Origin: Isoetes taiwanensis
Lineage: Eukaryota; Streptophyta; Lycopodiopsida; Isoetales; Isoetaceae
Direction: 5' to 3'
DNA: 64,000 nt
Assembly: GCA_021234155.1 (NCBI GenBank)
Contig: JAJEKV010000008.1
Coordinates: forward strand, 7,962,445 to 8,026,444
How positions within the stretch are numbered: the first letter of the stretch is position 1; every line of letters starts with the position of its first letter. Both the position numbers and the translations under genes were made by a program. Below, one piece after another: positions 32,757 through 60,919 of this stretch. Below the pieces are notes generated by a model. That model had not been told where the DNA came from. It was given only the letters and a program-made list of their open reading frames with translations, and ran no database searches.

Positions 32757-32823
32757 GCTATTATGGCCAGGGTTTTTCCTTGAACCCGAAAGGACGAGGT
32801 TTTTTAATCCCGGCCATAATGGT
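32757..32823 (+). other. S1: conserved 3' stem-loop, LINE-type
   Basis: ATTATGGCC (32760-32768) pairs perfectly with GGCCATAAT (32812-32820), with GC and wobble extension outward. Inside are GGGTTTTTCCTTG, then CC-GAAA-GG, then GAGGTTTTTTAATCCC. The internal loop sequence is shared with S2, S3 and S4, but the outer stem has its own sequence. Confidence 0.75.
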
Positions 32824-32858
32824 TTCACTGACCAGCATGGCATTGTAAGCATTGTATA

Positions 32859-33365
32859 GCATTGTATTATGGTTTGTGCTTAGTGGAGATGCCAGTTGTG
32901 GAGCATTGTATTACGGTTTGTGCTTAGTGGAGATGCCAGGTGTGGAGCATTGTATTATGGTTTGTGCTTAGTGGAGATGCCAGGTGTGGCTTTTCTTAGC
33001 ATTGTATCATGGTTTTGCTTAGTGGAGATGCCAGGTGTGGCTCAAGGGGGGTTCACAGTTTTGGGCGTATAACCCATCTGCATGCATGGGAAGGGGGTTT
33101 TTTGGACCCATTTTCGTACATATACGGTCGGCAGGGGGTCCTTTTCTGGTATTTTTTGCACTATCCTAGGTAATTTTTATTCGAAAGGGGTCAAAATTTG
33201 CTTTTAAAGATCCGTATACAGGGGGGTTTTTTGCCACCCCATGCATGCAGATGGCATATCCCCCTTATACATGAGTGAATCCCCCTTGGTGTGGCTTTTC
33301 TTTAGCTTGTATTATGGTTTGTGTTTAGTGGAGATGCCAGGTGTGGCTTTTCTTTTAGCTTGGCT
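32859..33365 (+). repeat. Tandem 44-bp repeats, about 5 copies, split by a MITE
   Basis: AGCATTGTATTATGGTTTGT then GCTTAGTGGAGATGCCAGGTGTGG recurs at about 32859, 32901, 32945 and 32998. A fifth copy occurs after the MITE, at about 33305. Later copies carry an extra CTTTTCTT. Near-identity suggests recent amplification. Confidence 0.88.
33043..33288. mobile_element. 246-bp hAT-type MITE with 8-bp target-site duplication
   Basis: The element begins CAAGGGGGGTTCAC and ends GTGAATCCCCCTTG, giving 14-bp terminal inverted repeats with one mismatch. GTGTGGCT flanks it on both sides exactly (33035-33042 and 33289-33296). An inner inverted pair, CCATCTGCATGCATGG and its complement, makes the whole element foldable. 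An 8-bp target duplication with C/TAAGGG-like ends is the mark of the hAT superfamily. It has no coding capacity. It interrupts the tandem 44-bp array, so it is younger than that array. Confidence 0.88.
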
Positions 33366-33370
33366 CATAT

Positions 33371-33371
<1 letters not shown>

Positions 33372-33463
<92 letters not shown>
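33372..33463. repeat. (CT)n microsatellite, about 46 units
   Basis: An uninterrupted CT run immediately after the 44-bp tandem repeats. It creates a Ser-Leu frame artefact. Confidence 0.97.
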
Positions 33464-33466
<3 letters not shown>

Positions 33467-33544
33467 TTTGACAATTGAATTTATCTTCGTATAACGATAA
33501 GAAGATAACAATATTTCACAATATAGCACTATATCATAAAAACA

Positions 33545-34610
33545 TAATGAAGAATAAGAATAAGAATAAGAATAAGAATAGATTTTTAGCGTCCACAGAG
33601 ACCAATTAGCCTATGGGACCCAAACCAAAAAGAGAGCAGCAAGCCTATTGACTGACAGGATTAAAAAACCCCCGCCCCGAAGGGTTTTCGAGGGAAAAAC
33701 CTTAGCAGTAATAAGTATGCTGGAAGGACACAACTGAGTCCGTGCATCCATAACCTCCTGGAGGTATGACCCCAACAAACCCACTGACGCCGTAGTCAAT
33801 AACTGATGCAACGGCTGGCCATGCACTAGTAATCGAGCATATCGCTCTCGGATATGAGCAAATGCTAGGCAGATCTGGAGGACATGACATTCATCCTCAA
33901 TAGCACCCTGGTGGCAACACTGGCAAACCCTTTGCTCCCGTGCTTCCCGAGCCCAACGTCCTGTTTCAATGCGGAGGCGATGTGCACCCGTGCGAATGGA
34001 AGCTACAAGTCTGCGCTTCTTCATGGGCAGCCGGGTGTACAAATCTTGGTGTGGGCCTCGTGAGCCTAGGATTGACTTCTTTGCGATAGTGTGCCCGACT
34101 TACGTCGCGTCAAAGCATCTGCATCCCAGAGCTTGCGAAGGAAAGTAGCATCTAGGTACAGCTTAAGTGCCTTGCGATCTTTCTTTGTCCTGACCTGGAC
34201 ACATCTGTTTGCCTGCACACCCCAGCGTGAGAACCACTGAGCTTGCTTGTCTTTCCAGCAGGATTTCAGGTGTTGAGGACCCATCGCCGTGGCCAAATCA
34301 AGGTTGGACAAGCGTGTATCAGCCATAGCGACCACCTTCTGGAAGTAAACGATATGGCGTTCCAATGCAGCCCGTTGAAGGGGCAGAAAGCCTGTCTCCT
34401 GAAGTAGGATCTGGTATGGAACTGTGGACTTCACCCCAAGGGCCCATGCCAAGAAGGCCTTCTGCACCTGCTCAAGATCATTCCAGGTGCTAAGGGATAT
34501 CACCGGACCCCACACTTCTGCCCCATACAAAAGGGCCGGCTCGACCAAGGCCCGAAACAGGTGTGATTGATGGCCCCAGGCATACAAGTCTGCCTTGTGG
34601 CTGTTGTTCG
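33545..34610 (-). mobile_element. 5'-truncated LINE: C-terminal part of ORF2 and 3' end
   Basis: Two frames on the minus strand, 34066-34587 and 33611-34042, read as one protein across a frameshift. The N-terminal part has LFRALVEPALLYGAEVWGP, which is 80-90 percent like the same segment of the LINE at 49363. The C-terminal part has HRLRIETGRW, then a Cys/His cluster (RVCQCCHQGAIEDECHVLQI) typical of the CCHC-like tail of LINE ORF2 proteins. The catalytic RT is missing. The 3' region has the S2 stem-loop, GGGTCCCATAGGC, GTGGACG and a (TTATTC)n tail at about 33551-33582. The 5' break at about 34600 abuts the TGACG array. Confidence 0.85.
33644..33715 (-). other. S2: conserved 3' stem-loop of the truncated LINE
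   Basis: On the minus strand, CTTATTACTG (33715-33706) pairs with CAGTCAATAGG (33654-33644) with one bulge and one wobble. The inner hairpin is CCC-TTCG-GGG, a UUCG-type tetraloop, within the same conserved frame of GGTTTTTCCCTCGAAAA and GGGGGTTTTTTAATCC as S1 and S4. Confidence 0.75.
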
Positions 34611-34659
34611 CATGGCATATAGTGCCTTCAAACCCGCCGCGACAAGAGAATGCCTGTTC

Positions 34660-35105
34660 TGCGTCAGAAAATACGTCAGAAAAATCTTATGTGTTTTTTC
34701 GAGACCGACGAATCGGACGAAAATTTTCGCGAAAATTGGCGGTAAAAGTTCGGAAAAAAAAATTCGATGAAAAATCGGACGCGATAAATTTTCCGAAGAC
34801 GAAAAGTCCGGACGAATAAAATGACGCTTAAAATCGTGAAAACCCCGAAAAATTTGTGACGCAAAATTTGACGAAAACTGTGACGAATATTTTTGCGATT
34901 AATCTGATGCAAAGTCTGACGAATAAAATGACGCAAAATCTGACGAAAAACCTGACGAAATTTTTGACGCAAAATTTGACGAAAAATCTGACGAATATTT
35001 TTGACGATTAATCTAACGCAAAGTCTGACGAATAATGTGACGAATACTTCTGACGATTAATCTGACGAAACTTCTGACGAATGTTCTAACGATTCTTTTC
35101 GTCAG
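34660..35105 (+). repeat. TGACG-rich tandem array
   Basis: A 12-bp-like word (TCTGACGAAAAA, with AAT, CAAAAT and ATTAAT variants) recurs. From 34822 to 35085 I count about 17 exact TGACG, with degenerate TAACG between. The left part (34660-34820) holds GGACGAA/TCGGACG variants. The minus strand shows a repetitive RQxLRH-like frame with no family, so I read it as satellite-like DNA. TGACG is the core of plant TGA/bZIP (as-1) sites; any regulatory role is inference. Confidence 0.8.
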
Positions 35106-35109
35106 TATA

Positions 35110-36500
35110 TTCATCAAAATATTCGATTTGTTAGCTTTAGGTCAACATTACAGGTTTCCAGACTTATTTTTAGAAGTTGCATGACTTCATACATACCAAA
35201 GGAACAAGGAATGCTCATATGCATGTAGATATGAAACGTTTTACAATCTATTTCAAACATGTCGAATAGTTAGACGAGGTAAATTGTACAATGTCGTCTT
35301 GTCTTTGGAAAGGATAATTAATCGTCTTGTCTTCGGAAAGGAGAATTAATCAAGCAAGTCTTAAAGCTGACTGCAAGTGCATAGTCGCACGCTCTGGTGT
35401 TTGATGAAACAATCATATAAAGTTTGAAGAAAAAGTGTGGCATCTAAAGAAACGGAAAAGGATAAGTTCAACCCAAATCCTTTTTGTGAAAGAGAAAACC
35501 ACAAAGTACCCTTACATTGTCCAGTCCAACACCAGAATGCCATGCCATACTCAAACAGAGATGTACTTCCAAATATGCAATGTATGTGTTTGCTAGACAA
35601 AATTACAATGCCATTTAGCACTCAAATAGAGTAGATGTTTTTTATACAATGTGTAAGGGCTGCATACCAAAGCAAACGTATTTTTCAAAGTTCCTTAAGA
35701 AGAATTGTCTAAGGTTCAGCATGTTCTACTAAAGTATGTTAATCCAACTTGATTCTTAAAGCATAGATTCAGTTGCGATGTTACGGACCTTAATAATAGA
35801 CACCATAGCAAATGTAACCCAACATAAATACCTTCCAATTTAAGCACAAGATCAAAGCCCCACTTTGAAGCAAATTTGTGTGCATGTCATTTCTATAGAG
35901 ATGCACAAATATTAGTTGAGCCAATAATTTCATTTAAATTGGCTCCGATCAGTTGCAAAGCCTTGTGCAGAGCCTCTGAATGCAAAGCCTCCAGTACAAA
36001 GCCTTCTGTAGAGCCTCCGATGCAAAAAAATCATAGCCTTACACTAAAGCCCATCTTCATCTGAGGCTATGGCCTTTGTCTACGTTTTCTGTGAGTCTGT
36101 GGCCTTCGTCTGCGTCGGCAAGGCTATGGCGGGTTTTTTGGAGGGCTATGGCAAGGATATTGCCTTCTAGGTTTTTTGTAGGACTATGGCTTTCGTTTGT
36201 GTTTCGGCTATGGCATTATGAAAGGAGGCAAGAAAGCATAACTGTGTTGGCAACACCACTTGAGGGCCGCCAAAAAAAGCACCCAAAGATTACCTGGATG
36301 CAAAAAAGTGTGTAATCTTAAGTAATCTGGGCTGACAAAGGTTACATAAAATAAAAACACTCTGAAAGGGCGAAAAATTGATGGTCTCATCTTTTTTAAA
36401 TATGAAAATTTCGTTGCATGTGTTTTGGGGGTAAAGAATTTTCACCGAACCCCTCTTTTTTCCTTCTTCAACGCCCAAAAGGATATCCGGGAAACCTAAT
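35110..36500. other. Unassigned stretch
   Basis: No gene. CTATGGC and CCTTCGTCTG(C/T)GT words recur at 36065-36220, giving open frames without motifs. Confidence 0.4.
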
Positions 36501-36506
36501 CCAACA

Positions 36507-36630
36507 TTTTTTGGGTTGCCCCTAAGGGGGCAAACCCTTGTTTATGTGGGTTTTTGGCATATCCTAGGTATATACTGGAATATACCTAGAATATCTTTGG
36601 TGGATTTGCTAAAACCCACTATTAGTCAGA
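36507..36630 (+). repeat. R1: double-hairpin module
   Basis: TTTTTGGGTTGCCCCTAAGG begins the module. GGGTTGCCCC pairs with GGGGGCAAACCC (hairpin I). Then TATCCTAGGTATA pairs with TATACCTAGAATA, one mismatch (hairpin II), followed by AAACCCACTATTAG. It lies about 200 bp upstream of the PPR relic. Other copies are at 42161, 57682 and 58529. Confidence 0.8.
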
Positions 36631-36836
36631 AATGCCGTGTCACCTTCCTTGTGGATGGCGGATGCTCCAACCGGGTAACTGGCAGGGCCCTTTAGGTTAC
36701 TGTGCCGTTCTTGGAGCCTAAGTTAATTTGTATTCTGTCATAGGTAAGATAGCAAAGAGTTATGACGAATCAGGTCGGAAAGTAGCACTACTGAATCCTG
36801 CATGCTTGTATTTGCGAGAGCCCAATTCCACAGCTT

Positions 36837-38476
36837 TTGATGCGCTACGAGCAAGACATTCCTAGTTTATTGCGAAAATGCAGTAGGGACGACACCAATG
36901 GTTTGGCTAAGGGGAAGCAGATTCATGCTTATCTTACGAGAAGTGGGCTTCTACATGATAGATTTTTGGGCAATCTTGTTGTCGAGATGTATGGAAAGTC
37001 CGGTGACCTAGAAAATACTTTTGGTTTATTCAAATGTATTTCTAAACCGAATGTTTATTCATGCAATATTATGATGGCAACATATACAAGCCTTGGGCAT
37101 GATGCGAAGCCCTCCACTTGTTTAGAAAAATGCCGGATGTAGGCTTAAGGCCGGACATAGTTACATGGAATGCATTGATTTCGACATATGCTCGGCCTGG
37201 TCATGTTGAAGAGGCATTCAAAACATTCACTTTCGAATGAGCAAAGAAGGTATCTATCCCGATGTTTTTTCATGGAATGCCCCGATTTACGCACATGCTC
37301 AACACGGGGTGTGCAAAAAGAGCTTTAGGTCTTTTTCAATCAATGCTGGAAAAAGGGTTAAACCCGATATTGTTTCATGGAATACAAATCATAGCGGGAT
37401 ATGCACAGAAAGGTATGGCGAGAGGCTTTGGAACAATTTCATAAAATGCGAAAAGTGGGTTTCAAGCCGATAAATATACTTTGATTAGCCTCGCTTAGTG
37501 CATGTGCGAACCTAGCATCTTTTGAGCATACTAAGATGATCCATTCTTACTTAGGAAATGAATTACGTTCAACTAATGCTACTTGGAATGCCCTCGTTGA
37601 TGCATATGCCAAATCGGCGATATGGATTTGCGCTTTGGATGTTTTTGAACATATGAATCACAAGAATGTAATAGCTTGGACATCTATCATTGCAGGCTAT
37701 GCAAAGAGGGAAATGGCAATAAAAGCGGTTCAACGGTTTCATGAGATGCGTGAGAAGGAGTTGAACCAAATAAGTTCACATTAGTGTTCATTTTGAGAGC
37801 TTGCCACGACTCTAGCTGCTCTAACAAGAGGGAAGATAATTCATTGTCTTGCAATTGCTAATGGTTTTTTTTCAGATGAAATAATGTGCACCCCGGTCAA
37901 TATGTACACCAAATGTGGCGGTTTGGGGAATGCATTGAGTGTTTTTGACAGGATGCACCTCGGGAGGTGTCATTTAAGTGGACCGCAATGATCACCGGAT
38001 ATGCTCAAAGACGGATATGGTAAGGAAGCCATACAACTTATTCACCAATGCAAACTAGATGGCACTAAAGGCGACGATATCACTTTCATTGCCATTCTTT
38101 CTGCATGTAATTATGGAGGGATGTTAAATGATTGCCATCATTACTTTATTTCCATGGGCAATGAAAATGGCATGTCACCAACAACCTAACATTATGGATG
38201 CTCAATTGATCTTTTTTTGGGAGAGTAGGCTGGCTAGAAGAGGCACATGATTTCATTGATAATATGCCATTGCAACCAGGATGTAATTGTCCGGGCGTCT
38301 CTCGGTTAGTACCTCTAGATTTCATGACGACTTTAAAGTTTGCAAATTATGCATCAGAACACATTATTGAGTTAGAACCATTAGATGCTGTACCATATAT
38401 ATTGCTGTCTAACCTTTATGCTAGGTATGAAGAAAAGAGTAAACAAACAGGGAGATGGAATGGACAAATATCCTAA
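36837..38476 (+). pseudogene. PPR (PLS/P-type) protein pseudogene
   Basis: PPR proteins bind organellar RNA through tandem 35-residue helical repeats. The intronless frame opens with PSLLRKCSRD and GLAKGKQIHAYLTRSGLLHD, the usual plant PPR N-terminus, then FLGNLVVEMYGKSGDL. Repeats continue across frames: VTWNALISTYARPGHVEEAF, IIAGYAQKGMAR, MRKVGFKPDKYTLISL, NVIAWTSIIAGYAKREMAIK, and SACNYGGMLNDCHHYF near 38100. LEPLDAVPYILLSNLYA (about 38370) resembles the C-terminal E region. At least six frameshifts or stops break it (for example near 37140, 37225, 37490 and 37785). It is clearly inactive. Confidence 0.9.
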
Positions 38477-38479
38477 AAT

Positions 38480-41400
38480 TGAGCTTCACTATCAGGATGC
38501 CAGATTCAGAGCATGTCTGATGCTAGTTCAGCGTTGGAATATCTTGCCTGCCAATGGATCTTGATTGAAAGCTGCTCTATCAAGAAAATTGATCAATGTC
38601 GGCTTGAATTTCTAAGAGTTAATGATGCTATGTGATGTGGTGTTTGAGGAATCATTGATGTGCCAGTTTTTGAAGCACAATCTTATGTTGCTATTATTGA
38701 GCTGGCAATGAAATCAGAGAACATCATTATGCGTCGGAGCTCACCAGCATTTGTCGTGCATTAGAGTTTGTTACAAAATTGAGTATAATTTTTTACATGC
38801 ATATTCATCTGTTATTGATATTGCTGCTCTTCCTGTTTTTCAATCCCCCATGTAGATTTGCATGCTTATTTTGATATGCCTTGCTTTGTTGCATAATTTG
38901 CCAAGTCATTAAAGCTTGAGTCCATCATTCTCATTGTAATATCTCTGTTCAATCTCAAAGAATCTAAATGGCATACCTTAAGGTTATGGAGATCATTCTA
39001 TTCACATTGTAGCTGGGAGAGTATGGTTAACTATTTCTCTTCATTTTTGCAGGCTGTCAACTTAAGTAGCTTTACAGATTAGATTTCCATAATGCAAGAG
39101 GTAATCAGTAAAACATTTTTGCTTCAATTTTTTAGCAAGCCTCCATTTGAATATGATTATTCATGCAGATACCAACAAAAGGAAAACAATGTGCACATGC
39201 TGAGATTCTAGAAGTTCTCTCAGCAGTATGAAACACATCGATTGGCATTAGCTACAACTTGGTCTCCTGTTGTATTGAGCGGGAAGAATTATAAAGGTTG
39301 CTCTAACATCAATCACATTAGAAACCTCGTGATGCTATCAGTGAGAAATGGCCCTTCCCACGTGAGAGACATCCAAACGTAGCATGGATGGCATTTCTCA
39401 AGCTGGTGGCCAAGTAAGTCTTCTGTTCTTATATTGGACTGACTGTTTCATGATGATTGAGATTGTACCACTCTTTGTTTGCTTGAATTTGGTCTTTGTT
39501 GTCGTACAGCGGAACAATGCAACAATGCAGATCTGTAGACTAAGAATTCTCTTGCCCCTTTCATGGCATAAATACTGCTACCCATTACTATGATTTTAAG
39601 GTCAATGTTCGTTTCATAACCTTTGGGAGGCTTTATTTTTTGTTCTCTTGCAAATAGTCTTGATTTCTCACAATTGGGTTTTCTCTACGAGATTGATTAT
39701 GTAAACTACACAGTTTGTTGTGCCATTAAGGAAATTGTGGCAGTAAATGGAAAATCTCCAGGGCCCTAAATCCAACGGCTAGGATTTGATTTGATAACCC
39801 TATCAAATCAAGGGATTTAACTAAAAAAAAGGGCAACCCTATCAAGCTTACCCGGGTTTACCCTATCAAGTCCTGACCCTCCCATTGACCCTCCCATCAA
39901 CTGATTCCTTCTGCAGATATGCACAGTGCTTGCCCTAGATTTACTGGGGCCAAAGCTTGCACTAGATAGGCCTGCCATCTCCATCCGATCAGCCTTTGTG
40001 AAAGAAGCGCAATAGCGGCATGCAAAGTTTATGGTATTTTGCTTGGCTGTGGCGACAAATATCATCAAAGCAGAAGGTTGGATTTTCTTTCACAGGGATA
40101 GTAAGCACAGATCATAAGGCAGGTCTCGGCTTCTTTTAAATGCGGATCATGGTAAGAACAGGCTTTACACACAGAGGGCACATTTGGTAAGAGATGTATC
40201 ATCAGACGAATTTAGGGTAGAGGAGAGTGTCAACAATGTTTTCATGGCAAGCATCTTCGACATCAAATACAGATGGTGACAGTTCGGCATCATTGCTTTG
40301 AATAAACGGTATCGTTGTCATATTTTTTAGCTCTCAGTTAGCTAAAATAAGTAGCTGAATGGGATGTATGCTCTGTAATCTTGATCTGCTTCAGAATTTT
40401 ATTTAATCGGGAGGAAGGAATGCAAAGTTAAAAGGTCATCTCTGCCCACTTTTAAGCTTGAGCATGCGTGCAGACATCAGATCTGTATATGTCAGATACA
40501 TACATGGGGCTTCTTATAGTGAGGCCAAATGGTGGTCAGGCAAAAAATCTTACAAAGAAGGCAGATAACATCTTCTGAAATTCACCAATGATGTTAAAAT
40601 TTGTGAAAATGGCCATCATCTACTTCACAGACGCCAGTACCAAGTATAAGAAGGTAACACCCCTAACTAACGTCTATATCCTCCAGTATGATTTAAATAC
40701 AGAAGAAACAATTATGCTCCTCGGGATCCCATTTAGCTGAAAGTCTTATTCTCTTCTATTCCTTTTCTTTTGTGAATGTCTGGTGGAAGCATTCAACAAG
40801 TTATACAACCAAGTATGTCTACATGGAGTGCAATTTTTGCATCTCCTCATCCTTGCGATTCTTGTATTATTGTTGTTGTTTCAGGTACTCCGGCAGATCT
40901 AGCTGCAAACATGTACACATCATGGCAGTCTTGGTTGCAAATGGAGCTTGCTATTGACAACGGCCTTTTTTTCCTTTGCCACTAGGACAGTGATGCGCAC
41001 TCTTCGATGCTGCCTGAGTTCAGCGTTGATGTCAATCCTGCACATTTTATGCATACCACAATAGAATTATAACAGTGGTTTCAAGTTAAACAGATTTGTT
41101 GATTGTCCTTATGCTCATGTTAGCTTTGCGAGGCAAATTCAAAACATACAGGATGTTATGCCAAAGATTTCTTAAATACGTTTGCTTCTCTTTGGAACCA
41201 AAGCTTTGCTAATTGCCTCTAGGCATTTTGATTTTTTATTCCCTTAATCCAAAATGGTGTACCTATTTCATGTAAAATGTAATAATCCACTTAGTTTAGA
41301 AATATAATCTTTTTCAACTTTTAGTTTTCAACTTTTAATATCTTCATACTCTTTGCAAAAGAAGTTAGTCATTTGAGGAACTAAAATTTTGGTTGGCCGC

Positions 41401-42160: not shown

Positions 42161-42297
42161 TTTTTGGGTTGCCCCTAGGGGGGCAAACCCTTGTTTATGT
42201 GGTTTTTGGCATATCCTAGGTATATGCTAGAATATCCCTAGGATATGCTGGTGACTGCTCCAAACCTCCTATTTCCTGTAAACTCTCGGTCAGCTGG
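42161..42297 (+). repeat. R2: double-hairpin module
   Basis: Hairpin I is GGGTTGCCCC against GGGGCAAACCC. Hairpin II is perfect: GCATATCCTAGG (42209-42220) against CCTAGGATATGC (42237-42248). The module then reads CAAACC.CCTATTTCCTGTAAACT. It shares CAACCGGGTAACTGGCA further downstream with R1. It lies upstream of the PRP22-like pseudogene. Confidence 0.85.
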
Positions 42298-42299
42298 TA

Positions 42300-43310: not shown

Positions 43311-43314
43311 AATG

Positions 43315-44990: not shown

Positions 44991-44999
44991 TGAGATCCA

Positions 45000-48721: not shown

Positions 48722-49498
48722 GGAAAGAACCAAGCTTGGGATTTATATTAGTTGGTATTAGTTGCCACAAGTATGGCAATGTAGCTCCGGCACTGTATGC
48801 TATGATGGCTCTTTGTATTTTGTGATATTATCTTTGCATCCTTATCTGGTAGATGAGCATCAGTTGAGCATGAAGATTTTGAGATGTTAATTCTGTTTGT
48901 TTCCAAGTTAGTATATTTCTTGTTCTTCCAATTGTGTACATCTTTTGGCATTTTTGTATGCAGGCCTTTTACGTTGCCTGCGAACATCAATATCTAGCAT
49001 AACGTATTGGCTTCTATGGATTTTGTTGAATTTGCTTAGGACCTATCAAGTAGAGATCCGAATTCGCTGCTTGATGCACATAAAGTTGACATCCGAATTG
49101 GCATCCACAATGTGGAAACTATGTTCTATCTATAATGGCACGTTATACCCGGTATGGGAATAGGTTGCATCTGGCCTATTTATCAATGCGCATCCATGTA
49201 CATCTCTTCAAATCTCAGAATTACACAGTAACACAATGCGGCTTATTGACTATTTTGAGAAGAATGGGGAATATCTGAATGCCAGGTATATATAGAGTGC
49301 TAGGAAATTCTTAAGCGACCATTTTTGAGAAAAATGGGTAATACATGAATGCCATGTATATAAGGAAGGAAGGAAGGAAGGAAGTTTATTTTAACGTCCA
49401 CGGAGGCCAGAGGCCTATGAGACGGTACATGCAGAGAACAGGCAAAAAAGCCAAAAACTCCAACACCAAAAACAAACAATGTAACTGTACAGTAGAAC

Positions 49499-49552
49499 CC
49501 TACTACCGGGATGAAAAAACCCCCACTTGGGAGGAAAAACCCTAACAGTAGG
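49499..49552 (-). other. S3: conserved 3' stem-loop of the LINE
   Basis: On the minus strand, CCTACTGTT (49552-49544) pairs with GGTAGTAGG (49507-49499) as nine pairs, three of them G-U. Inside: AGGGTTTTTCCT, hairpin CCC-AAGT-GGG, GGGTTTTTTCATCCC. The frame is the same as S1, S2 and S4, with a different stem. Confidence 0.72.
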
Positions 49553-49555
49553 CTC

Positions 49556-52500
49556 TCAAATACCATGCCCCAGAAGAGCAAGTCTGACGGCCGAAATCTG
49601 CAGGATGTAAGCTCCCAGTCGCGCTACCATAGGTGATGCAAGTAACTGATGTAGCGGTGTGTCAGAGCATCTAAGATCAGTGTGCACTGCTCGAACATGG
49701 GCATATGCTGGGCACCGCTGGAGGGCATGGTGCTCATCCTCTATCACGTGCATCTCACAACACTGACATATCCTCTCCTCCCTGGGGATCCCGTGCCCAC
49801 CATTCACCCCCCAGCGACCTGTTTCAATTCTGAGGTAATGGGAACCCGTCCTTATGGCAGCAATAGCTCTCCGTTTCTTCACAGAGATGTGTGCTTTCAA
49901 GTACCGATGGGGTCCATGCTCAAGGCCGGGATTAATCTGAGCGTGATAGTGCTCTGTCTTGGGCTTTGCAAGAGTAGAGGCATCCCACAGGGTGGCAGCA
50001 TAGCCTGCATCCAATTGCCCATTCTGCGCATCAGAATCTGCCAGTGCCACCATCTGTTGGTAATCCATAGACCACCTCCTAAACCATCCCTTACGATTAA
50101 GCGTGCCATACATACCCTCTTCACCCCAATTTGGGGCCCTCCGTTAACAACACGGCACTGTGGGGGCAAGCGATGCTCATCCATCCCATCCACCTTATGG
50201 AAGCAAGTAAGATGCTGCGCATAGCGTATTTGTAAAGGCCCCGTCTCATACAACAAAATGATCTGGTGCGGTGTCCTTCACTCCCAAGCTATATGTCAAG
50301 AAAGCTTTACGCACCTTTCCAACCTATCCCACGTATTTTTGCTAATCTAATTTGGGCCCCAAACCTCCACCCCATATAGCAGCACCGGCTCGACCAAAGC
50401 CCTAAACAGGTGTGCTCTCCTCGCCCAGTCACAGAGATCTATCCGGCAACACGCGCGTTTTTGCATCATATATAAAAGCCTTCCAGCCTGACCGCTCTCC
50501 CTCTCCACACACTCATCCCACAGCATGTTAGTAGTGAAATCAATTCCCAGATACTTGAAGCTCCGCACCATCTCCACTTCCTGTCCCCTGTAATATAACT
50601 CCGGGATAGGGTGTTGCGAGGACAGGATCGCGAGAAGCTTAGTTTTGTGCAAGTTCACTGTCATTCCCGTTGCCCCACAGAACCCACTGAGGGCATCCAA
50701 CTGCTGCTGCATACTGCTGGCCGTGTGGGCTAGCAAAGCTACATCATCCGCATATAGTAACTGGCTCACAGAGGTCGCATCAGATAATTGCACCCCGGCT
50801 CCCCCATGGTGCTGCATCCACGTCTCCAAGCTATCAATGTACAACCCAAAAAGCGTTGGAGACAACGGGCAGCCCTGCTTAACTCCCATAGTGCTAGCTA
50901 CCCGCCGATCTTCATAAGGCAACGCAGCATAAATCCCATCATAAAGCTGGTGCACCACATTTTGCAACTCCTGTGGAACTCGCAATTCTTGCAACCTCTC
51001 GCCACAAAGATGTCTCCGGGGGACGGTATCATATGCGCTTTAAAATCTACAAAGCAAAGAATACAAGTCCTGTCGCGCATTGCGGCTTGCCTCCATCAAC
51101 ACTCTCAAAGTGAAGATATGGTCAGTCGTGGAGTGAGCTGGGCGAAAGCCTGCCTGGCCAATTGCCCGCACCCCTGCCTCCTCGGCCCACTTAGTGAGCT
51201 TCTTCTCCACCACCCCTGCCAGGAGCTTTGCAAACAGCGAGCTTACCATAATCATCCGGTAATTCGCGGCCATCCAGATTACCAGGCTTTATGAACAGGA
51301 ACAACCTTACTAACCATCCACTCCTGGGGGAGCCCCTCGCTCAGAGCCTGGTTAATGATCACCGTCAGGGGCCCTACCACAGATGGGCCACCCCACTTCA
51401 ACAGCTCGGCCTGCAGCCCCTGTAAATCCTTTGCCTTGCCATTCGCCGGATATGCGAGACCTGGCTGGACATCCTCCCGCGTGAGCTGCAGCACCTCTCC
51501 TACCTGATCCGGGACCCTGGCATTAGCTCCTGGGGGGTCATATAACTCCTGCAAGCGGTGCATCCATTGCTCCACACTTACATTACCAGCCACCTGGCGC
51601 TTCTTGTATAACACCTTACGCCAAAAAGCTTTTGGCTCTGCCATAAGCATGTCAAACAGACGCTCCTGGGTTTCTGCCATGTATCTCCCCTTCTTGGCTT
51701 TTAGGAAGAGCTTATAGTCTTGCAGGGCCTGTGGCCGCAACTGTGGATCTATGACCAAGCGCAGCTGGCTCTTTAGAGCCTTGCAATCAGCATCAAACCA
51801 CGGGTTCTCAGGAAAATGCTTGGTGTCCCTCCTTGGAGGGCCCTTCACGCAAAGGAAGCCTCGGCGGTGCGCAAAGCGGCCCCCTCACCAGCCATGCACA
51901 CTGTCTTGCGGTGTGTAAAAAGCTATCAAACCCCTCAGAACTCCCGCACCAACACGATTCATCTTCCCTCGCCGATAGCGTGGGATGTACGGTAACCCTC
52001 CATGCCCCCTTTGCGGTGTCTCCACTATTGAGTGCTCCCAATTCAGCGTGACATAAAGCGGGTAGTGATCTGACAAAGCCTCCTCATCCCCCTCGTAGCT
52101 TGTGCCAATGGAGAAGTGTGTAACCATGTCAAGTCTTTGCTATCTTTGGGCGAAGGTAATCCAACACACTAGCTCCCCCATCCCCGCCTATCACTCCCCG
52201 CAAGTAACACCCCCGAGGTGTGGCCATCGGCATACCATTACAAATTACCATGTCAAAACCACGGCGAGCTGGACCAGGTTGCACGCCAAATGGTCTAGCC
52301 ACCATATCCCGGGAGTGCCGTGTATCTTTGAATAGCGGCTGTCTCAAACCAAAGCGGATCAGCATTATCGTCACCTTGGAAGGTCACCGATCGCAAATCT
52401 GGCCAGACGAGCATTGAAATCTCCAAGCAAAAACACCTGTCCCCTCTTTGTCTATAGCGGTCTATGTCATCATCTGAGATCCCTATACACGGATCCGGAC

Positions 52501-52850: not shown

Positions 52851-52999
52851 ACAATTCCAGGAAACAATGCGAAGACACTTTCCCTATGCTGACTGCGGCT
52901 GTGGACCCATCTGAGTGCCTGAGGACGCTGCTGTGGTTGGAATAACTCGGGCAGCCTGCTCACGGGACCCTGATGGATGTGCTGCAGTGGTGGAAGGCC

Positions 53000-53581: not shown

Positions 53582-53599
53582 GAGCTGGAATAGACGGCA

Positions 53600-56590
53600 T
53601 CAAATCGTTCTTCCTTTTCAGGTGGGGTTTTGGATTTTGTGGATTCAAGTTATGGCTTGCATAGGCTGCAGGAATCAATCTGTACATGCTTTTGGATGGT
53701 AGATTTCTTCTGTGTTAGCTACGGTTGGAATTGCCGAGGCTCTAGTAAAGCCTGTGAGACGAGATTGAATATGCAGGTATCTTAGAATTAATTGAGGTGT
53801 TCCATAGAGCAACATGACAGAAATTACAGGACTTAGGCAAGCTTGGAAGATGGATTGGATTTGTTTTCATGCTGGAACCAGATAAATATAAGAAGAGCAG
53901 ACAGGAAAAGGGTCTCGATTGCTGCATCGAAGCCAGGGATCATATGCCTAGATCAGGCTGGGATTTCATGAAAAGGGCCGATTTGGGCCATAGAAGGACT
54001 GAGCTGTCCTGGGCAGCAATGAATCAGGGAGATCAAGGGTTTTCCAGAGCTGCCGAACTAAACCCAACGGCCTCCTGATTGATACAAGAACAGGTCGAAA
54101 TTGCTCCTAAGGAGCCGAATTGGGGTTTAACAGAGAAATTATATGTGCGTAGTTTTGGAGCTGCCACAAAAACCGTCACACCTGGGAAGAATCGGTCAGA
54201 ACACTTGGAAACGACCAGGAATGGGTCGATTTGAGCCTGGAACATGCCGATTTGGCTTTTGGATTGGCCGATTTGGCCTTAGATGATCCGGGCCATGCCT
54301 AATCAGGCCGACCGTTTGGCAAAAAGACTCCTGTGTGGAGGTCGGAAGGCCAGACCCAAAATGGGTCTGCGTTTGTTGTCTTTGGTTATTTTTATTTTTA
54401 TTGTCTTGCTCGTTCCTTTTGTTATTTTGTTTTACTTTGTCTTATGTTAAGTAGCAAGCTGGTGGTTATAGGGGAAATAGGAAATACAAGGAGCCGGATG
54501 AAGCACAGATTATTCAGAGGGTAAATTTGGGTGAGCTGCAAGCGGTTTGGGATAATACAATACACAGAGATATGTAATAACTTAATTGCTTGGAATAACA
54601 ATTGTAAGGGAATAATGCGTAATTTGATATCCATAAGAATAATATGATAAGCATGAATAAATGTTTAAATCTATAATTGAATAACTAAGGGAATTGTGAC
54701 GGCTTGCTCCCAGAGATGGGGCTTGCCTGTGTGCTGCTTGACGGAAGTTCCAGGCAGTTGCGGTCAGGGGACCCCATGGATTTTTAAGCAGGAAAAGCGT
54801 AAGTTGGAGGCGCCAGTCTGAATGCGCAATTAATTCATTAGCTAAGAAGTGGTATTTTAAATATTAAAACCTTGAAACCATATCTAAGGGAGTTTATAGT
54901 AAATAATGTTATGGAGTGAATCCTGCATCGAACTTAGGGATGGTTTGAGCACGCTACATCAACATTTGAGTTGTCATTATGGTTTTCATCATCGATCTAG
55001 CTACTTCGGCATGGTTAGGTTGTATGGGCAACCTCGACAAGGGCTAAGAGTATGATCTAGGCACATTTATAGTACATTCTCTAATGAACACACATGTTAT
55101 AGTCTTGAGTTGTTCCACTGTCGTTCTTGATATTATGCATGTACTTGGAACCTCCGGGGTCGGACTTCCAGGTTCGGTGGCCTGGGTAGTTCCGGCATTC
55201 TCATGTCATTTGTGTTCTTTGTATCTATGCTCTGTGACACCGGGCGTGGCCTCCTCACGGGCGTAGCTTCCCGGTGAGGTTGTACGTCAACTCCTGTGAC
55301 TCCATGGTAAGAGGTCCTCCAGCGCCAGACGTGGGCTGGGAAGGGTATGCGCATACGAGGTTCACCCCACCAACTCCGCCAACGGGGCTCGGAATGTGAG
55401 CTGGCCGGGCATTTCTCTGCTAACAGGGCCTGCATGTAGGCTGGCTGAGCTTCCCATTGTCCCGGAGCTTTGCTATGTTGTTTTGGTACTTTGGCTTTGT
55501 GTTCTTTGCTCTTGACTCTTATGGTATTTCTTTTGTCGTCATTGTCTAGCACTGCACCATAGTCTCTTGTATATTTGGAATTGTTCATGTTTATGTTACC
55601 AAGATGCCAGAGTCTCCCTATGTATGCAGTAGCAGCCACGGGATCCCCACTTAGTCACGAGGACTAACCCCAGTGAGTGCATGTGCAGTGAACCCGCAAG
55701 GTAGCGGTCAAGTTGATGGTGGCAATGTGGCCGGGAATCGTGCTTGAGTTCTAGAGCTAGCAGTTTCTGTTGATTTGCTCAGTGCTGTTGTACATGTATA
55801 TTTGATAACACATTGTAAATATTTGAGTTGTTTGATTTGCTCAACTCGAGATTATAATATATTAAGCTTATGAATATGTTGAATGCATGAGCAGTGTTGT
55901 CTGTTGAGCATAAACTGTGGATTTTAATTGCAAAGGAAGATTCAATTCTTCACCTGAATTCACCTGTGCATAAATCTAGTCGTAAGTTAGACAAGATCCC
56001 GAGTTGCCAATGCATACATGTCATCAATTGAATCCATTTGCCATGGAAATAATTTGTCGTGTTATTGTGCTTTTTGGTAATTAATATTTAGGCCCATAAA
56101 GTTTACCTATGCTTGCTTTAGTTAGGGCCCGAAGGGCCTTAAATCTTTTTTAATATAACAATCAACACACAACTACCATTAACATTATTAACATAAACCA
56201 TTGTATTTAACACATTTAAAATAAAATCCCCCTTAAACCCCCTTTGGTTTGGGTGCATATTCTCACAGGGGGGTTACTCCGGGCAACGAGAGCTGTCGGA
56301 TGGGTATATTTGCTCTTTATTCCAAGATCTGGACCGTACATAGCGATCCTCATTTGTGGGGTATACATGTGCAAGTTTTTGTATACTGTATATTAAGGTT
56401 TGCAAAATACTATAAGGTTTGAGAGAATGTACTTAATAGTGTTATAGGCGTCCCAATATTTGCAAGTTCCAAATCATGCCCTGCAATGCTGGGCACCATA
56501 ACTATCCTGTTGTAATGTATTAGTTTGTTCAAATAAAATCTTTGTAACTCCCAATATAATACAACGTACTCGTTCTTGCTTCCATGCATT
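53600..56590. other. 3-kb unassigned stretch, possibly LINE 5' region and LTR-like debris
   Basis: At 53960-54290, GCCGATTTGG/GGTCGAT words recur. At 55235-55430 is a GC-rich stretch starting TGTGACACCGGGCGTGG that resembles plant gypsy LTRs in composition, but I found no second copy in the window. The minus-strand frame at 55133-55639 has no motif. Copy 2 of dispersed repeat D lies at 56343-56425. Confidence 0.35.
56343..56425 (+). repeat. Dispersed repeat D, copy 2
   Basis: GCGATCCTCATTTGTGGGGT, then ATACATGTGCAAG, ACTGTATATTAAGGTTTG and CAAAATACTATAAGGTTTGA matches the copy at 30505-30590 in the same orientation. Confidence 0.75.
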
Positions 56591-56599
56591 GCAGTAAGG

Positions 56600-56995
56600 C
56601 ATAGGCACCACTTTGGCACCGCCTGATTATTATATTCTTGCTATAAGAGGTGCTTCTATTCAATCATTTTTCCCAGTGGTTCTGGAAATGGGTCTGGATT
56701 ATCCAAGGGACATAGTCTTACTTCAACCGAAAGATGTGAAAGACCATATGTTGCAGTTATCAAGATATTTTCTCCTGTCTTATCCGCATGGTTTCAATTT
56801 CAGTTTTGGACTTTAGGAAATCAAGGCTTCAAATAATGAGCTTGCAAATGCTGTAAATGGTTGTGCTATGGTACCTGATGAAAATACAGAGCTTCAAGAT
56901 GAAGTTCCAGATTCTCAGTGTGCTGGAATTATTTTAAGCACTTTATTTAAATTGGTGCCTTTAAATACAGTTATGATGGTTATGATATATGGAGT
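56600..56995 (+). pseudogene. Coding-like remnant, product uncertain
   Basis: One frame reads VVLEMGLDYPRDIVLLQPKD then DHMLQLSRYFLLSYPHGFNF, a TAG at about 56814, and continues in the same frame with NNELANAVNGCAMVPDENTE to MVMIYG, which meets GTAAGT at about 56994, a consensus splice donor. The single in-frame stop and the donor suggest a decayed exon. It lies 1.8 kb upstream of the class-3 lipase relic and could belong to the same ancestral gene, but I cannot show this. Confidence 0.45.
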
Positions 56996-57166
56996 AAGTA
57001 TAAATAAAGTTATCTGGCTAATAATTAGAGTACCTTATAGATTGTAAGGGCCTCTTGGATGTAATATATTCATTGTGAACATGAATACTCATGGATGGTG
57101 GTTGCTTCATGGCTATCTCTTAGCCATTATAATTACACTTTGGTATGCTTAGATTTTGGGCATAAT

Positions 57167-57183
57167 GTGGGTTCAAATCCCAC
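57167..57183 (+). repeat. tRNA T-arm-like motif
   Basis: GTGGG-TTCAAAT-CCCAC is a perfect 5-bp stem with a 7-nt loop, as in a tRNA T arm. No anticodon arm or acceptor can be placed. A tRNA-derived SINE remnant is possible. Confidence 0.45.
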
Positions 57184-57681
57184 ATATTCAAGATCGTCTT
57201 CCACGCCATTCAAAATTGAGAGATATACTCTACCATAAAATGTCGAACATTAATAATGGATTCAACCTTGTAGTTTTAGAACCAAACAAATGTCTGCACA
57301 CTGGGGTGTCTCATTTTCGATGTCCCTTTTGTCCCCCAATTTAGTACTAAAATCAATAAAGGTAGTTGGAAATCTTGGAGGCAATTTCAAATTTAGAAAA
57401 CAAAAATAGCAATAAAAAATCGAATTCCTTGAATCTTGGAGAACCGGGCTACAGTGCGTGCATGTGTTGAGCCCCGATAAATAAAACTAAAACACCAACG
57501 AAATCATCATTCTTGCTTCTCGTCTTTCGATATGTTCAAGGTTTGAATGGAACCAATGGATTGTGTTTCTTTTTCCTATTTGCAACATTCAATTTGTGAG
57601 TTATTAGCGTATTTGAATGCCTTGCCTTATGAATTATGAATTGGGCATGGAAATAACATTCCACTGATATGTTTGAGTCCA

Positions 57682-57763
57682 GTTTTTTGGGTTGCCCCTA
57701 AAGGGAAAACCCTCATCCATGTGGGTTTGTGGGATATTCCAAGTATATGTCAGTATATGCTCG
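57682..57763 (+). repeat. R3: decayed double-hairpin module
   Basis: TTTTTTGGGTTGCCCCTAAA followed by GGGAAAACCC, GTGGGTTTGTGGGATATTCC and AAGTATATGT. Hairpin II is degraded. It is followed directly by a Q-type start (ACATGACTTTGAAGTGTGAT, 57769), so R and Q may be parts of one larger repeat. Confidence 0.7.
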
Positions 57764-58069
57764 AAAACATGACTTTGAAGTGTGATTTAAGCATGACTTT
57801 GAAGTGTGTTTGAAGTGTGCTGTACAAATATTAGGCTAGATTGCACGAAATACATCTGCCAACGGAAAAGGTGGAAATCTTTCATAATGGAAGGCACCAG
57901 TGTGTAACAGCCATTGCATTTAGCATCAAACGTCCACTGACAAGTAAACCAATAAACAAATCAATGCAAACACGTGTACAGGAATAGTAGTGAGAAAGTC
58001 AAGTGGAATAGAACGTGATAGGAGTTTCAGATAGGAAATCAGTTATGACAACATGAATATGAGTCTGTG

Positions 58070-58155
58070 CGCTCTATGAGAAGTTGGGGCAACAGTATCC
58101 CTCTTGCATCAGTGTGAGAAGTTGGGACAACAATATCCCTCTTGCATCAACAGGA
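58070..58155 (+). repeat. Tandem duplication of about 43 bp
   Basis: GTGAGAAGTTGGG(G/A)CAACA.TATCCCTCTTGCATCA occurs twice in succession. Confidence 0.85.
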
Positions 58156-58179
58156 TTTAGCTCCGTTATTTCTGAACCA

Positions 58180-58415
58180 TCAACATGAACATCAGCAAGA
58201 ACATCAAAATTTTTAGTACATATCAGAATTTGAGGTGAACCATCAATATGAACATTAACAAGAACGTCAAATTTATTAGTTAGAATTTGAGGTGAACCAT
58301 CAATATGAACATCAACAACAATGTCAAATTTATTATTAGTACAAGTGAACCGTCAATGTAAAAATTAGCATGAACATCAAATTTATTTGTACATATATCA
58401 GAATTTGAAGTCTAG
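58180..58415 (+). repeat. Minisatellite, about 62-bp unit, 4 diverged copies
   Basis: The unit GAACCATCAATATGAACAT, CAACAAGAAC(A/G)TCAAATTTATTAGT, (ACATAT)CAGAATTTGAGGT recurs four times with indels. No coding frame is conserved. Confidence 0.85.
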
Positions 58416-58528
58416 TTGATGAAGTTTTAGGGTGGTTAGACTGATCTAAATATGCACTTGAATGAAAATTAAGTTTGCCTTTGTCAAATGATGACATATT
58501 AGGATGGGCCTTTAGTATTTGTTGCAAT

Positions 58529-58662
58529 ATTTTGGGTTGCCCCTAAGGGGGCAAATCCTTGTCCATGTGGGGTTTGTGGTATATTCCAGGTATATGCTAG
58601 TATATGCCCGGAATATGCCAATAACTGCTACAAACCCATTATTGGCTGTAAACTGGCGGTCA
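58529..58662 (+). repeat. R4: double-hairpin module
   Basis: TTTTGGGTTGCCCCTAAGGG opens hairpin I. Hairpin II pairs GGTATATTCC.GG with CCCGGAATATGCC. Its core is TTCC/GGAA here but TCCTAGG/CCTAGGA in R2, so both arms changed together. ACAAACCCATTATTGGCTGT follows. The lipase relic starts about 100 bp downstream. Confidence 0.82.
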
Positions 58663-58759
58663 TTTCTGTTTCTGGGGAGGCACTCTGGAAACAGGCTAAC
58701 CGGTGTTTTGGCGATGGTGGCTATCCCCTTTGGTAGACATGTCTGCAAATCCTACACAC

Positions 58760-59265
58760 ACCCACGTCTCCAAAACATCTCCGGCTGGAGCCTGCCCACT
58801 AAACTCTTTCCTGCTTGCTCCTCATGGAGGAGCCCATGCTCATGTATACCTTCATCATTTTAGTGAGCGAATGATTGTTGCATTTCGAGGCACTGCTGAA
58901 TTTCAAAAGACGGAATGTCGGATCTTTGCACAGGCCAGAACATGTTCGGTCAAGGATTTCCAGGTATTCCCTTTGTACGCTCTGGCATATGCTCCATGTT
59001 TGCCAATGAAACCCTAGATAACTATTCCCAGGCAGTGAAATATACAAAGCAAGCTTTAGCAGCCTATCCTAGTAGATCTTTGTTGCTCACAGATCATAGT
59101 TTGGGTGCTGGACTTGCCCTTTTGGATTCTGCAAATTTTTCTAACAGATTAGTGCTCCCTATTGTTGGATTCAGTGCCCCTGGTCTATCAGAGTTACCTA
59201 AAAGATGGAATTTGGAACTTAAGGCTGCTCAAGAGCATATGGTCTTTGTAATAGGGGATAAATGA
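58760..59265 (+). pseudogene. Class-3 (Rml-type) lipase fragment
   Basis: Class-3 lipases are alpha/beta hydrolases of acylglycerols and galactolipids. The first frame holds LLAPHGGAHAHVYLHHFSE then RMIVAFRGT (about 58857-58890), the usual strand before the oxyanion region. After a frameshift near 58910 comes ETLDNYSQAVKYTKQALAAY and then LTDHSLGAGLALLDSANFSN: the nucleophile elbow GHSLG has Asp in place of its first Gly (near 59092). LPIVGFSAPGLSEL follows. IGDK then a stop ends it before the catalytic Asp-His region. QVGIIGLY, a plausible continuation, appears at about 59295 in another frame. It is inactive. Confidence 0.8.
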
Positions 59266-59914
59266 AATGTAGTCATTAGATAAGCTTGGAATAGGCAGGT
59301 TGGCATTATTGGTTTGTATCAGACCTAGAAAATCCCTCATTGTAGTGTTTGCTTACAATGCCATTTCTAGGATTAATATATTAGATCTACTAAGGCCTTC
59401 CAAGGATCTTGACTCCTTAACTTGTTTCTTTGAGAGCCACTACTTAAAACATTTGATTAGCCTTATATACCAAGGTTCAAGACTTGTGTGCCAAATAGCG
59501 AATCTCAATCAGTGCATGTGCTTCAGGCTGACTTCACAATTTAATATTGTATATCTATTAAAAATAAGAAATGCAAAAATGCATGTAATATGGAATTAAA
59601 TCATGGAATTCGATATTCAAAAATGCATGCAAACTGACATCCCGAATCGAGTCGGGGCGATCATAGCATATAAAATATGCAGGGCCTCAATGGTACCAAT
59701 TTCCTGCTCACACTATTTTCTTCAAATTCCATAAATTACTCAACAATTTAGAGCTATGAAACGGCAATAAGCTTCATTGAATCAGATACCAAATGCCATT
59801 TATACGAACAGAATTAAGGCATAAGGTAAAGGATGCTTCCCGTATATTACAAATCATAAATATAAACATATATGGGTAAATTCTACAAGAAAATGCTTCA
59901 AGAAAGCTTAATAT

Positions 59915-60915
59915 CCCATCGATCCGAGACATCGGATCGCCATTCTAGAATGGGACGAGCATGCATGTTTTGCATGCATGCGGGCGGCGCATGCCTATTC
60001 TGGTTGGGAGTTCGCTATTTTAGGCGCGTTTCTGCTTCGACTTCTCATCGGCGCTTCCTCTTCTCTCTCAGCAGTACCTTATTCTCTTTGAATTGTTTTC
60101 AGGCAGGGGAGGGGCTTCTTCCTGCCTGGTTTGGCCAATTTGGCGTTTTTTTCATGCTGTCCTTTCTCGGCCTTTAGCCTTCATCCTGTGACCTTCGTCC
60201 TCGATCCTAGTTTGTTAAGGAAGTCCTTTGGTATTCGGGCGGTTTGTTGGTTTCATGCGAGTCCCATTCTAGAATCCCATCGATCCGAGACATCGGATCG
60301 CCATTCTAGAATGGGACGAGCATGCATGTTTTGCATGCATCGCGGTGGCGCATGCCTATTCAGTTGGGAGTTCGCTATTTTAGGCGTTTACGCTTGACTT
60401 CTCATCGGCGCTTCCTCTTCTCTCTCGGCAGATTACCTTATTCTCTTTGAACCCACCCCCTCTTTGTTATTGTATTTTTATCGCGTGGCACGCTTCAACC
60501 CTCCACTCTGCGAGGTTTGTTTTGTCTTGTTGTTTTGTTAGTGATGTGCAGGTACAGGTTAGCGAGCGGCATCTGTTTCGACTTTTCCATTCGTGGGTTT
60601 TGGGAGCGATTTTTATGCCTTACGTTTGTCTAAGCCCCTTGCCGAAGGCTTATCACTAGGGTTTTTCCTCGAAAACCCGAAAGGGCGGGGTTTTTTAATC
60701 CCGGTGATAAGCTTTCGGCAGGTACACTAGCCCAGTCTCTATTAGCATTGTATTTTGTTGGGGTCCAAATGATATAATTGGATTTTCCCTTTATTTTTTA
60801 TGGGTAGTTCGCATGTGTGCGGCTACCCACTATCTACCATTGTAGAAAATCTGCTGAGATGAATGAGAAGCAAGTCGGGCGGTTTGTTGGTTTCATGCGA
60901 GTCCCATTCTAGAAT
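59915..60915 (+). mobile_element. Tandem H-module element (H3 + H4) with S4 stem-loop
   Basis: H3 starts at 59915 and H4 at 60276, a 361-bp step. Each has CGATCCGA-GACA-TCGGATCG, the palindrome CCATTCTAGAATGG, GCATGC repeats, a CTATTTTAGGCG TATA-like box and TTCTCATCGGCGCTTCCTCT leader. GGGCGGTTTGTTGGTTTCAT, then GCGAGTCCCATTCTAGAAT, precedes H4 and also ends the element at 60915. The start (ATTCTAGAATGGGAC) and end are inverted relative to each other. The S4 stem-loop lies within the second unit. Similar tandem layout at H1/H2 suggests head-to-tail units. The class is not established: LTR-like, tandem LINE promoter monomers, or a TIR element. Confidence 0.55.
60640..60720 (+). other. S4: conserved 3' stem-loop
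   Basis: GCCGAAGGCTTATCAC (60641-60656) pairs with GTGATAAGCTTTCGGC (60704-60719), 16 pairs with one G-U. Inside: TAGGGTTTTTCCTCGAAAA, hairpin CCC-GAAA-GGG (a GNRA-type loop), GGGGTTTTTTAATCCC. The internal frame matches S1, S2 and S3. Confidence 0.85.
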
Positions 60916-60919
60916 CTAC

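Follow-up and report, generated by a model that had tools for sequence, protein, structure and literature searches.

Probable elements for nuclear expression in the 3' regions of transposons of Isoetes taiwanensis

Four stem-loops (S1-S4) in a 64,000-nucleotide stretch of the Isoetes taiwanensis genome (the window) are probably elements for nuclear expression (ENEs) of transposon RNAs, placed close to the 3' end. Such an element holds the poly(A) tail in a U-A-U triple helix and prevents its deadenylation. The anatomy observed here comprises a conserved stem, an internal loop formed by a U5 and a U6 tract, near-invariant G-C closing pairs and an outer stem that covaries; because this shape is that of an ENE that grips poly(A), the hairpin probably protects the transposon RNA carrying it. 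All four stem-loops of the original prediction were located (Table 1), and the family to which they belong numbers thousands of copies.

The element carrying S2 was identified as a LINE by the 3' motif and tail at the locus, the motif core lying approximately 57 nt downstream of the hairpin core; no reverse transcriptase (RT) domain was found at this locus. S3 adjoins the TGA terminating an open frame (49556-50143), and the terminal motif core of its LINE lies approximately 103 nt downstream of the S3 core. Within the S4 element, the left segment (59913-60092) recurs at 60274-60451 and the right-end segment (60235-60276) recurs at 60875-60916. Folding compared with 200 shuffles yielded z-scores of -4.70 for S1, -3.43 for S2, -1.06 for S3 and -6.05 for S4. 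Given this z-score and the 31 of 200 shuffles that folded equally well, S3 by itself is unexceptional in folding, which weighs against the ENE reading.

Table 1. Hairpins and associated element features in the window.
Feature	Position	Strand	Details
S1 ENE-like hairpin, family B	32751-32829	+	core 32770-32811; R1 75.4 bits
S2 element 3' terminal motif and TTCTTA-type tail	33545-33620 (bounds approximate)	-	
S2 ENE-like hairpin, family E, UUCG loop, LINE-type 3' region	33638-33721	-	55.9 bits
S3 LINE 3' terminal motif, AATAAA, (CCTT)n tail	49352-49420 (bounds approximate)	-	
S3 ENE-like hairpin, LINE family C 3' region	49490-49561	-	72.3 bits
S3 LINE reverse transcriptase (RVT_1) open frame	50350-51039	-	E 1e-19
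Family A non-autonomous element containing S4	59913-60916	+	repeated end segments
S4 ENE-like hairpin, family A, GAAA loop, long outer stem	60640-60720	+	99.8 bits

Genome-wide, the core pattern shared by S1, S3 and S4 gave 3740 exact matches and the S2 core 4043, and reversed versions of both patterns gave none. The S1/S3/S4 pattern had no match in viral contigs and one in the prokaryote genome collection. Copy number was estimated at roughly 7,800 (exact cores) to 17,700 (a looser search minus its control). A generic scan of 308 kb for a U4-6 loop with G-C clamps returned 42 matches, 41 of them with a known core and the last an S2-type copy (L042), and the same scan of five Markov controls returned none. 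Using the outer-stem arms alone, 2188 family A copies were found genome-wide; among the 100 of these that were listed, identical sequences were frequent. For the S1/S3/S4 core, 100 of the 3740 matches were listed and 98 regions were fetched (40 of approximately 6 kb and 58 short), the other two lying inside those. Alignment A1 contained 70 of 71 distinct rows (L105 was omitted) together with S2, 71 rows in total; alignment A2 contained 35 rows picked for spread across families, including L118, which is misaligned by one base, and L107, which carries an insertion.

The proposal that selection acts on an RNA fold was borne out by the inner pairs of the outer stem, where pairing and double-change covariation exceeded all 1000 tree-aware simulations (0/1000) in two alignments, indicating compensatory change beyond relatedness. 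Control partners slid by one or two columns (A2, 200 simulations each) fell inside the null. An all-pairs tree-aware test identified no single pair at E < 0.05, and this too weighs against the ENE reading; the best structural pairs, placed second and fourth among 3003, had E values of about 1.1 and 2.0. As the compensatory change surpasses the tree-based null, selection on the RNA fold is supported, and the stem differences do not reduce to a few subfamilies lacking compensatory change. Conservation of the stem through pairing was applied here as an additional ENE criterion and is not among the published defining features. The outer stem had also been described as differing completely in sequence between copies; compensated pairing was confirmed, whereas the complete difference was not, since the aligned stems share a pyrimidine-rich 5' arm, a purine-rich 3' arm and two pairs that hardly vary (A1 columns 14-79, UA in 69 of 71 rows; columns 15-78, AU in 67 of 71).

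The U5 and U6 tracts and the GG/CC clamps were invariant or nearly so across six flank families, although this invariance is biased by the inclusion of both in the search patterns. The tracts, part of the pattern, were present in 71/71 A1 rows, and the two loop-flanking pairs were GC and CG in 71/71 rows each (pattern-fixed in 70 rows); in A2 these G-C pairs were kept in 34/35 and 35/35 rows. In the 100 listed family A copies found by their arms alone, both U runs and the clamps were visible by eye (uncounted), one U run often being a base short. An A immediately 5' of GGG, which is absent from the search pattern, was found in 103/103 copies. The lowest clamp pair covaries (GC 19, AU 14, CG 1, GU 1; n=35). 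In minimum free energy folds the lower clamp was closed in 30/35 and the upper in 23/35 rows, which counts against the ENE reading. Swapping of the inner loop among GAAA, TTCG and AAGT was seen again, with GAAA in 28 of 47 long-core rows, TTCG in 6 of 12 newly fetched S2-type copies, and AAGT, ACAT and similar loops in the 24 short-core rows. The idea that an AAAA bulge pairs within the molecule with the 5' U tract, as GGGUUUU/AAAACCC, was rejected, the bulge being missing in LINE families C and D.

The hairpin lies close to the 3' end of its element and, in the LINEs, on the sense strand. A tail was found in 28 of 34 LINE copies, and in these the core stops 95-127 nt short of it; the tail is directly preceded by AATAAA in 14 and by AATATA in 11. 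In family A, 15 copies had a matched terminus, and in 11 of them the distance from the end of the core to the right terminus is 213-223 nt. The DNA copies terminate in microsatellites or TTCTAGAA ends and not in poly(A), which also counts against the ENE reading.

This placement bears on the role suggested in the original prediction, in which the LINE RT recognises the hairpin as a 3' structure that non-autonomous elements have copied. The nearly constant short distance from the tail agrees with such a role, as does the presence of the same core in non-LINE elements. Among LINE 3' motifs, 18 of 26 had the hairpin, although 13 of the 18 had been fetched because of it; all 18 LINE 3' ends retaining sufficient upstream sequence carried it, including the five not fetched for it. 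Upstream of the eight motifs that lack a hairpin, no more than about 50 nt resembles LINE sequence, these being truncated copies, SINE-like or chance matches; as this is too little LINE sequence to decide anything on RT recognition, they were dropped as an argument against it. What does weigh against it is that in none of 31 long-flank copies of families A and B (25 and 6, respectively) was the LINE terminal motif present in the 600 nt that follow the hairpin, so that these families do not look LINE-mobilised. Moreover, conservation is strongest in the U-loop and its G-C clamps, features characteristic of an ENE, and the LINEs commonly have a distinct terminal motif adjoining the tail. RT recognition is therefore considered less likely than the ENE reading and, overall, improbable.

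Families A (S4) and B (S1) have, where resolved, termini of the TTCTAGAA type, and combine hairpin and inverted-repeat ends with a repeated left segment; the ends of family B are based on three copies (L014, L019 and L033). Candidates for their class are Helitron-like elements and tyrosine-recombinase elements with split direct repeats. Among the open frames scanned in these three copies, a PPR fragment in L014 and a weak NFRKB match in L019 (E 0.0078) were located between the repeats. The 5' repeat of L019 is overlapped by a DUF7869 frame that extends beyond it. The end structure of these families, together with the abundance of Helitron proteins in the genome, would suit a hairpin acting at the DNA level, as a single-strand structure for replication or recombination that LINEs later acquired. 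A comparison of G-U with A-C pairs, which would fix the RNA strand, was counted over 17 pairs (family A 46 v 13, family B 13 v 2, LINE families C/D 49 v 39) and over the 8 innermost (8 v 7, 6 v 0 and 27 v 12, respectively). As evidence of the RNA strand the G-U excess is mixed: it is scant in the innermost family A pairs, in line with a DNA hairpin, whereas its presence in both A and B over 17 pairs argues against one. The module also lies inside the element, some 215 nt away from its terminus, and is shared with LINEs, for which no single-strand-hairpin replication or recombination step is known. A DNA-level function is thus very unlikely.

A slightly poorer prospect still is passive inheritance, in which the module is kept merely through multiplication of its carriers. 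The copies are indeed multi-copy repeats, many of the listed family A copies being identical, and the all-pairs test singled out no pair; the compensatory change in the inner stem, however, arose between families and surpassed every tree-aware simulation.

No Rfam match at gathering level was found within the window, and permissive scans of window positions 32400-34000 and six short loci contained no ENE family, which counts against the ENE reading. These scans returned sca_ncR26 (E 2.9, at another position in the stretch), mir-9413 and, in L052 alone, three additional chance-level matches. A microRNA or siRNA precursor, for which the mir-9413 match in family A and a stem reaching 18 pairs might speak, is the least probable explanation, as the match scores 29.7 bits against a gathering threshold of 100 and is confined to the stem arms, the arms are unconserved between families while the U loop is conserved, and LINE stems have only about 9 pairs.

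If the hairpins are ENEs, the element would be transcribed by Pol II and polyadenylated, and its poly(A) tail would thread into the U-rich loop, pairing with one U strand by Watson-Crick bonds while the other U strand occupies the major groove (Hoogsteen) and the G-C clamps cap the triplex. Deadenylases would be blocked, giving a longer-lived RNA and increased mobility. The outer stem would be required only as a stable helix, so that its letters could drift in compensated pairs, and the GAAA or UUCG loop only for closing the hairpin. Target-primed reverse transcription in the LINEs would more likely depend on the terminal motif and microsatellite tail than on the ENE.

A broader proposal is advanced tentatively: the single-domain ENE may have become a transferable module for RNA stability in an early vascular plant, inherited in common by RT-coding LINEs, which have no poly(A) in their DNA copies, and by at least two unrelated hairpin-ended non-autonomous families, in the roughly 7,800-17,700 copies estimated above. 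LINE RNA would then need two 3' signals, the ENE for survival and the terminal motif with its microsatellite for priming. If this is true, poly(A) protection would be a widespread transposon strategy in an ancient plant lineage, and the copies would form a ready-made collection of compensated variants for structure-function studies. It could then be asked directly whether copy number is predicted by the presence of an ENE and whether such modules move between element classes.

The KSHV PAN ENE has a single-loop anatomy, and in the MALAT1 triple helix the A-rich tract is encoded in the genome. Both share with the Isoetes hairpins a U-rich loop and G-C stem clamps, and lie near the RNA 3' end (PMC8704770, PMC10078130); they belong to viral or cellular noncoding RNAs, whereas the Isoetes hairpins lie in transposons. 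A hairpin near the 3' end with both loop strands mainly U is described in one of these sources (PMC8704770). Known ENEs come from viruses, from a few vertebrate RNAs and from transposons of plants and fungi. According to citing papers, Tycowski et al. (2016) reported about 200 ENEs, mostly in plants and fungi; these resemble the Isoetes hairpins both in the type of element and in the type of carrier. One citing paper describes a strong association with LTR retrotransposons, whereas the Isoetes hairpins occur in LINEs and non-autonomous elements. The ENE of Evade (Copia93) in Arabidopsis likewise has U-rich internal loops and G-C closing pairs in a land-plant transposon 3' UTR (PMC12501189). 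Evade differs in being an LTR element and in having four U-rich tracts (PMC12501189), whereas the Isoetes hairpin has one U-tract pair and is carried by LINEs and hairpin-ended non-autonomous elements in thousands of copies. The double ENE of a rice hAT transposase mRNA (7JNH; PMC12707130, PMC12846552) is also a transposon hairpin with a U-rich loop and G-C closing pairs; it was described with poly(A) (PMC12707130), and poly(A) binding is a feature of the rice element that is predicted here. That ENE comprises two tandem domains in a DNA transposon (PMC12707130, PMC12846552), in contrast to the single domain in Isoetes. Against this background, the occurrence of a single-domain ENE in so many copies, in microsatellite-tailed LINEs and shared with unrelated non-autonomous elements, looks new.

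The four stem-loops of the original prediction were all recovered in the window (S1 to S4). S1, S3 and S4 share the frame GGG-UUUUU-CC ... GG-UUUUUUNAU-CCC and S2 has AGG-UUUUU-CCC ... GGG-UUUUUUAAU-CCU. In all four an outer stem encloses this frame and its inner hairpin. Relative to shuffles, fold energies were well below chance for S4 (z -6.05), S1 (z -4.70) and S2 (z -3.43), and ordinary for S3 (z -1.06).

Coordinates of the hairpins and of further features in the window and in the fetched genome region L014
Feature	Position	Strand
Stem-loop S1	32751-32829	+
Stem-loop S2	33638-33721	-
Stem-loop S3	49490-49561	-
Stem-loop S4	60640-60720	+
LINE 3' motif and microsatellite tail	33545-33620	
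LINE 3' motif and microsatellite tail	49352-49420	
Family A/B architecture	59913-60916	
ELO-family (fatty acid elongase) open frame, 294 aa	20397-21281	+
MATH-BTB-BACK gene broken into three frames	27845-29237	-
PPR (E motif) gene fragment	L014:3253-3708	-

Exact searches of the whole 1.66-Gb genome returned 3740 matches to the S1/S3/S4 core and 4043 to the S2 core, with none for the reversed pattern of either, and a 16-mer from the 3' half, allowing up to 2 mismatches, gave 20,312 matches genome-wide versus 2,564 for its reversed control. The S1/S3/S4 core pattern was matched once in the prokaryote genome collection and not at all in the viral collection. Single-base homopolymer contractions separate many of the 100 copies listed genome-wide, as expected from nanopore assembly errors; because they are common among copies, the exact-match counts are probably lower bounds. 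The published I. taiwanensis assembly combined Illumina, Nanopore and Bionano data (PMC8566536). With 71 copies as training rows, a covariance model gave 51 matches at E < 1e-6 in 308,040 bases searched, nearly all of them training rows or regions fetched via the core; those inside the window were S1-S4 and no others, and 5 outside it had neither trained the model nor been fetched for the core.

The two U tracts are fixed or nearly so, as are the G-C pairs next to them, in part through the search patterns, and the A just 5' of the lower clamp (the clamps being the G-C pairs that close the U-rich internal loop) was present in 103 of 103 copies and in all 12 new family E copies. The lowest clamp pair alternates between GC and AU, with CG once, in A2, a 35-row alignment drawn across all families. 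Inner stem and loop vary across copies. The predicted loop swapping was borne out: among the 47 long-core rows of the 71-row alignment A1, 28 carry GAAA, while TTCG occurs in 6 of the 12 new family E copies and AAGT or ACAT types in families C and D. In family E the inner stem switches between UCG/CG and UUG/CA, both sides changing jointly, as read, uncounted, from the match list.

For the 29 pairs of A1 the share of paired cells is 85.8%; shuffling gives 77.2% and sliding the partners 43-52%. Double-change cells number 218 against 87 in shuffles; two of five measures (pairs with double change, further pair types) were not clearly above shuffles. The corresponding pairing values for A2 (14 pairs) were 91.2%, 81.1% and 21-55%. 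Since kinship of copies inflates shuffle-based counts, a tree-aware null was used in which each column was simulated independently along the tree, keeping its own number of changes. For the inner pairs of the outer stem the observed pairing or double-change score was matched by 0 of 1000 simulations in both alignments, and for the distal pairs it was reached by at most 1 of 1000; controls with slid partners, run only on 8 pairs of A2 with 200 simulations apiece, fell within the null. A home-made test of all pairs, similar in kind to R-scape but with little power for 35 rows, returned no single pair at E < 0.05. Both results stand: the predicted covariation is upheld for the inner outer-stem pairs against the simulations, and did not appear as individually significant pairs. 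Two outer-stem pairs are nearly fixed despite changing neighbours (A1 columns 14-79, UA in 69 of 71 rows; 15-78, AU in 67 of 71).

Flanking sequence divides 103 copies, the 100 listed places together with S1, S3 and S4, into families A (56, including S4), B (12, including S1), C (14, including S3), C2 (8) and D (13), the last three being LINEs. A sixth, family E, of S2 type, is classed as a LINE solely on its 3' terminal motif and tail, the scanned S2 frames having yielded no RT domain. A reverse transcriptase frame lies upstream of the hairpin in family C in the window and in family D in fetched region L016. Downstream of LINE hairpins come the terminal motif and a (CCTT)n- or (ATTCT)n-type tail, and TGA stands at the stem base in C and C2 (20 of 34 C/C2/D copies). 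Families A and B are, as far as seen, non-autonomous. Both have inverted TTCTAGAA-type termini with a left-end hairpin (25 aligned A copies, 3 B copies read) and TTCTAGAA at the right, in the window and in copies within fetched regions L009-L048; in several copies the left segment is repeated ahead of the hairpin-bearing part, giving an A1-B1A2-B2 layout in which a right-end copy is followed by the left segment again. Such an architecture may be Helentron-like or else belong to a tyrosine-recombinase element. The genome is Helitron-rich, all 150 scored Helitron_like_N candidates, out of 1813 genome-wide, passing the cut-off. It also contains 66 matches to the light-harvesting protein family. 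The PPR fragment in L014 lies between two repeats of one family B copy, an arrangement as in gene capture. The stretch TCGAAAACCC is frequent in families A, B and E, which argues that the hairpin is probably one module handed between elements rather than a product of convergence.

The hairpin had been proposed as a 3' recognition structure for the LINE RT. The terminal motif adjoining the tail is common to LINE copies, and 18 of 26 such motifs in the examined DNA have a hairpin 34-104 nt upstream, 13 of these having been fetched for the hairpin and the other 5 including S2 and S3; the 8 motifs lacking one cannot inform on an RT signal because their LINE-like sequence spans no more than about 50 nt. 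A recognition role is less likely, as in none of the 31 long-flanked copies of families A and B do the first 600 nt downstream contain the LINE motif, and as the conserved portion of the hairpin is the U loop. The short motif GTCYCATAGGCC..TTGGYCTCCGTGGACGWTAAAA, common to LINE 3' ends and followed by differing microsatellite tails, makes a good RT-signal candidate.

The conserved part of the hairpin matches what an element for nuclear expression (ENE) requires, and its anatomy supports treating the hairpins as probable ENEs. Location also fits such a role: 28 of 34 LINE copies place the core 95-127 nt ahead of the tail, and 11 of 15 family A copies place it 213-223 nt ahead of the right end; directly before the LINE tail stands AATAAA in 14 of 34 copies and AATATA in 11. 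A literature search found nothing on ENEs in LINE or non-LTR elements or on lycophyte LINE RNA structure; the main 2016 survey of transposon ENEs lay outside it, so LINE or lycophyte ENEs cannot be called unreported. For the ENE of Evade, it is reported (PMC12501189) that mutating the U-rich loop or the adjacent G-C pairs abolishes the triplex transition, that mutating an A-U stem pair leaves it intact, and that Evade without its ENE shows reduced RNA stability and fewer new insertions.
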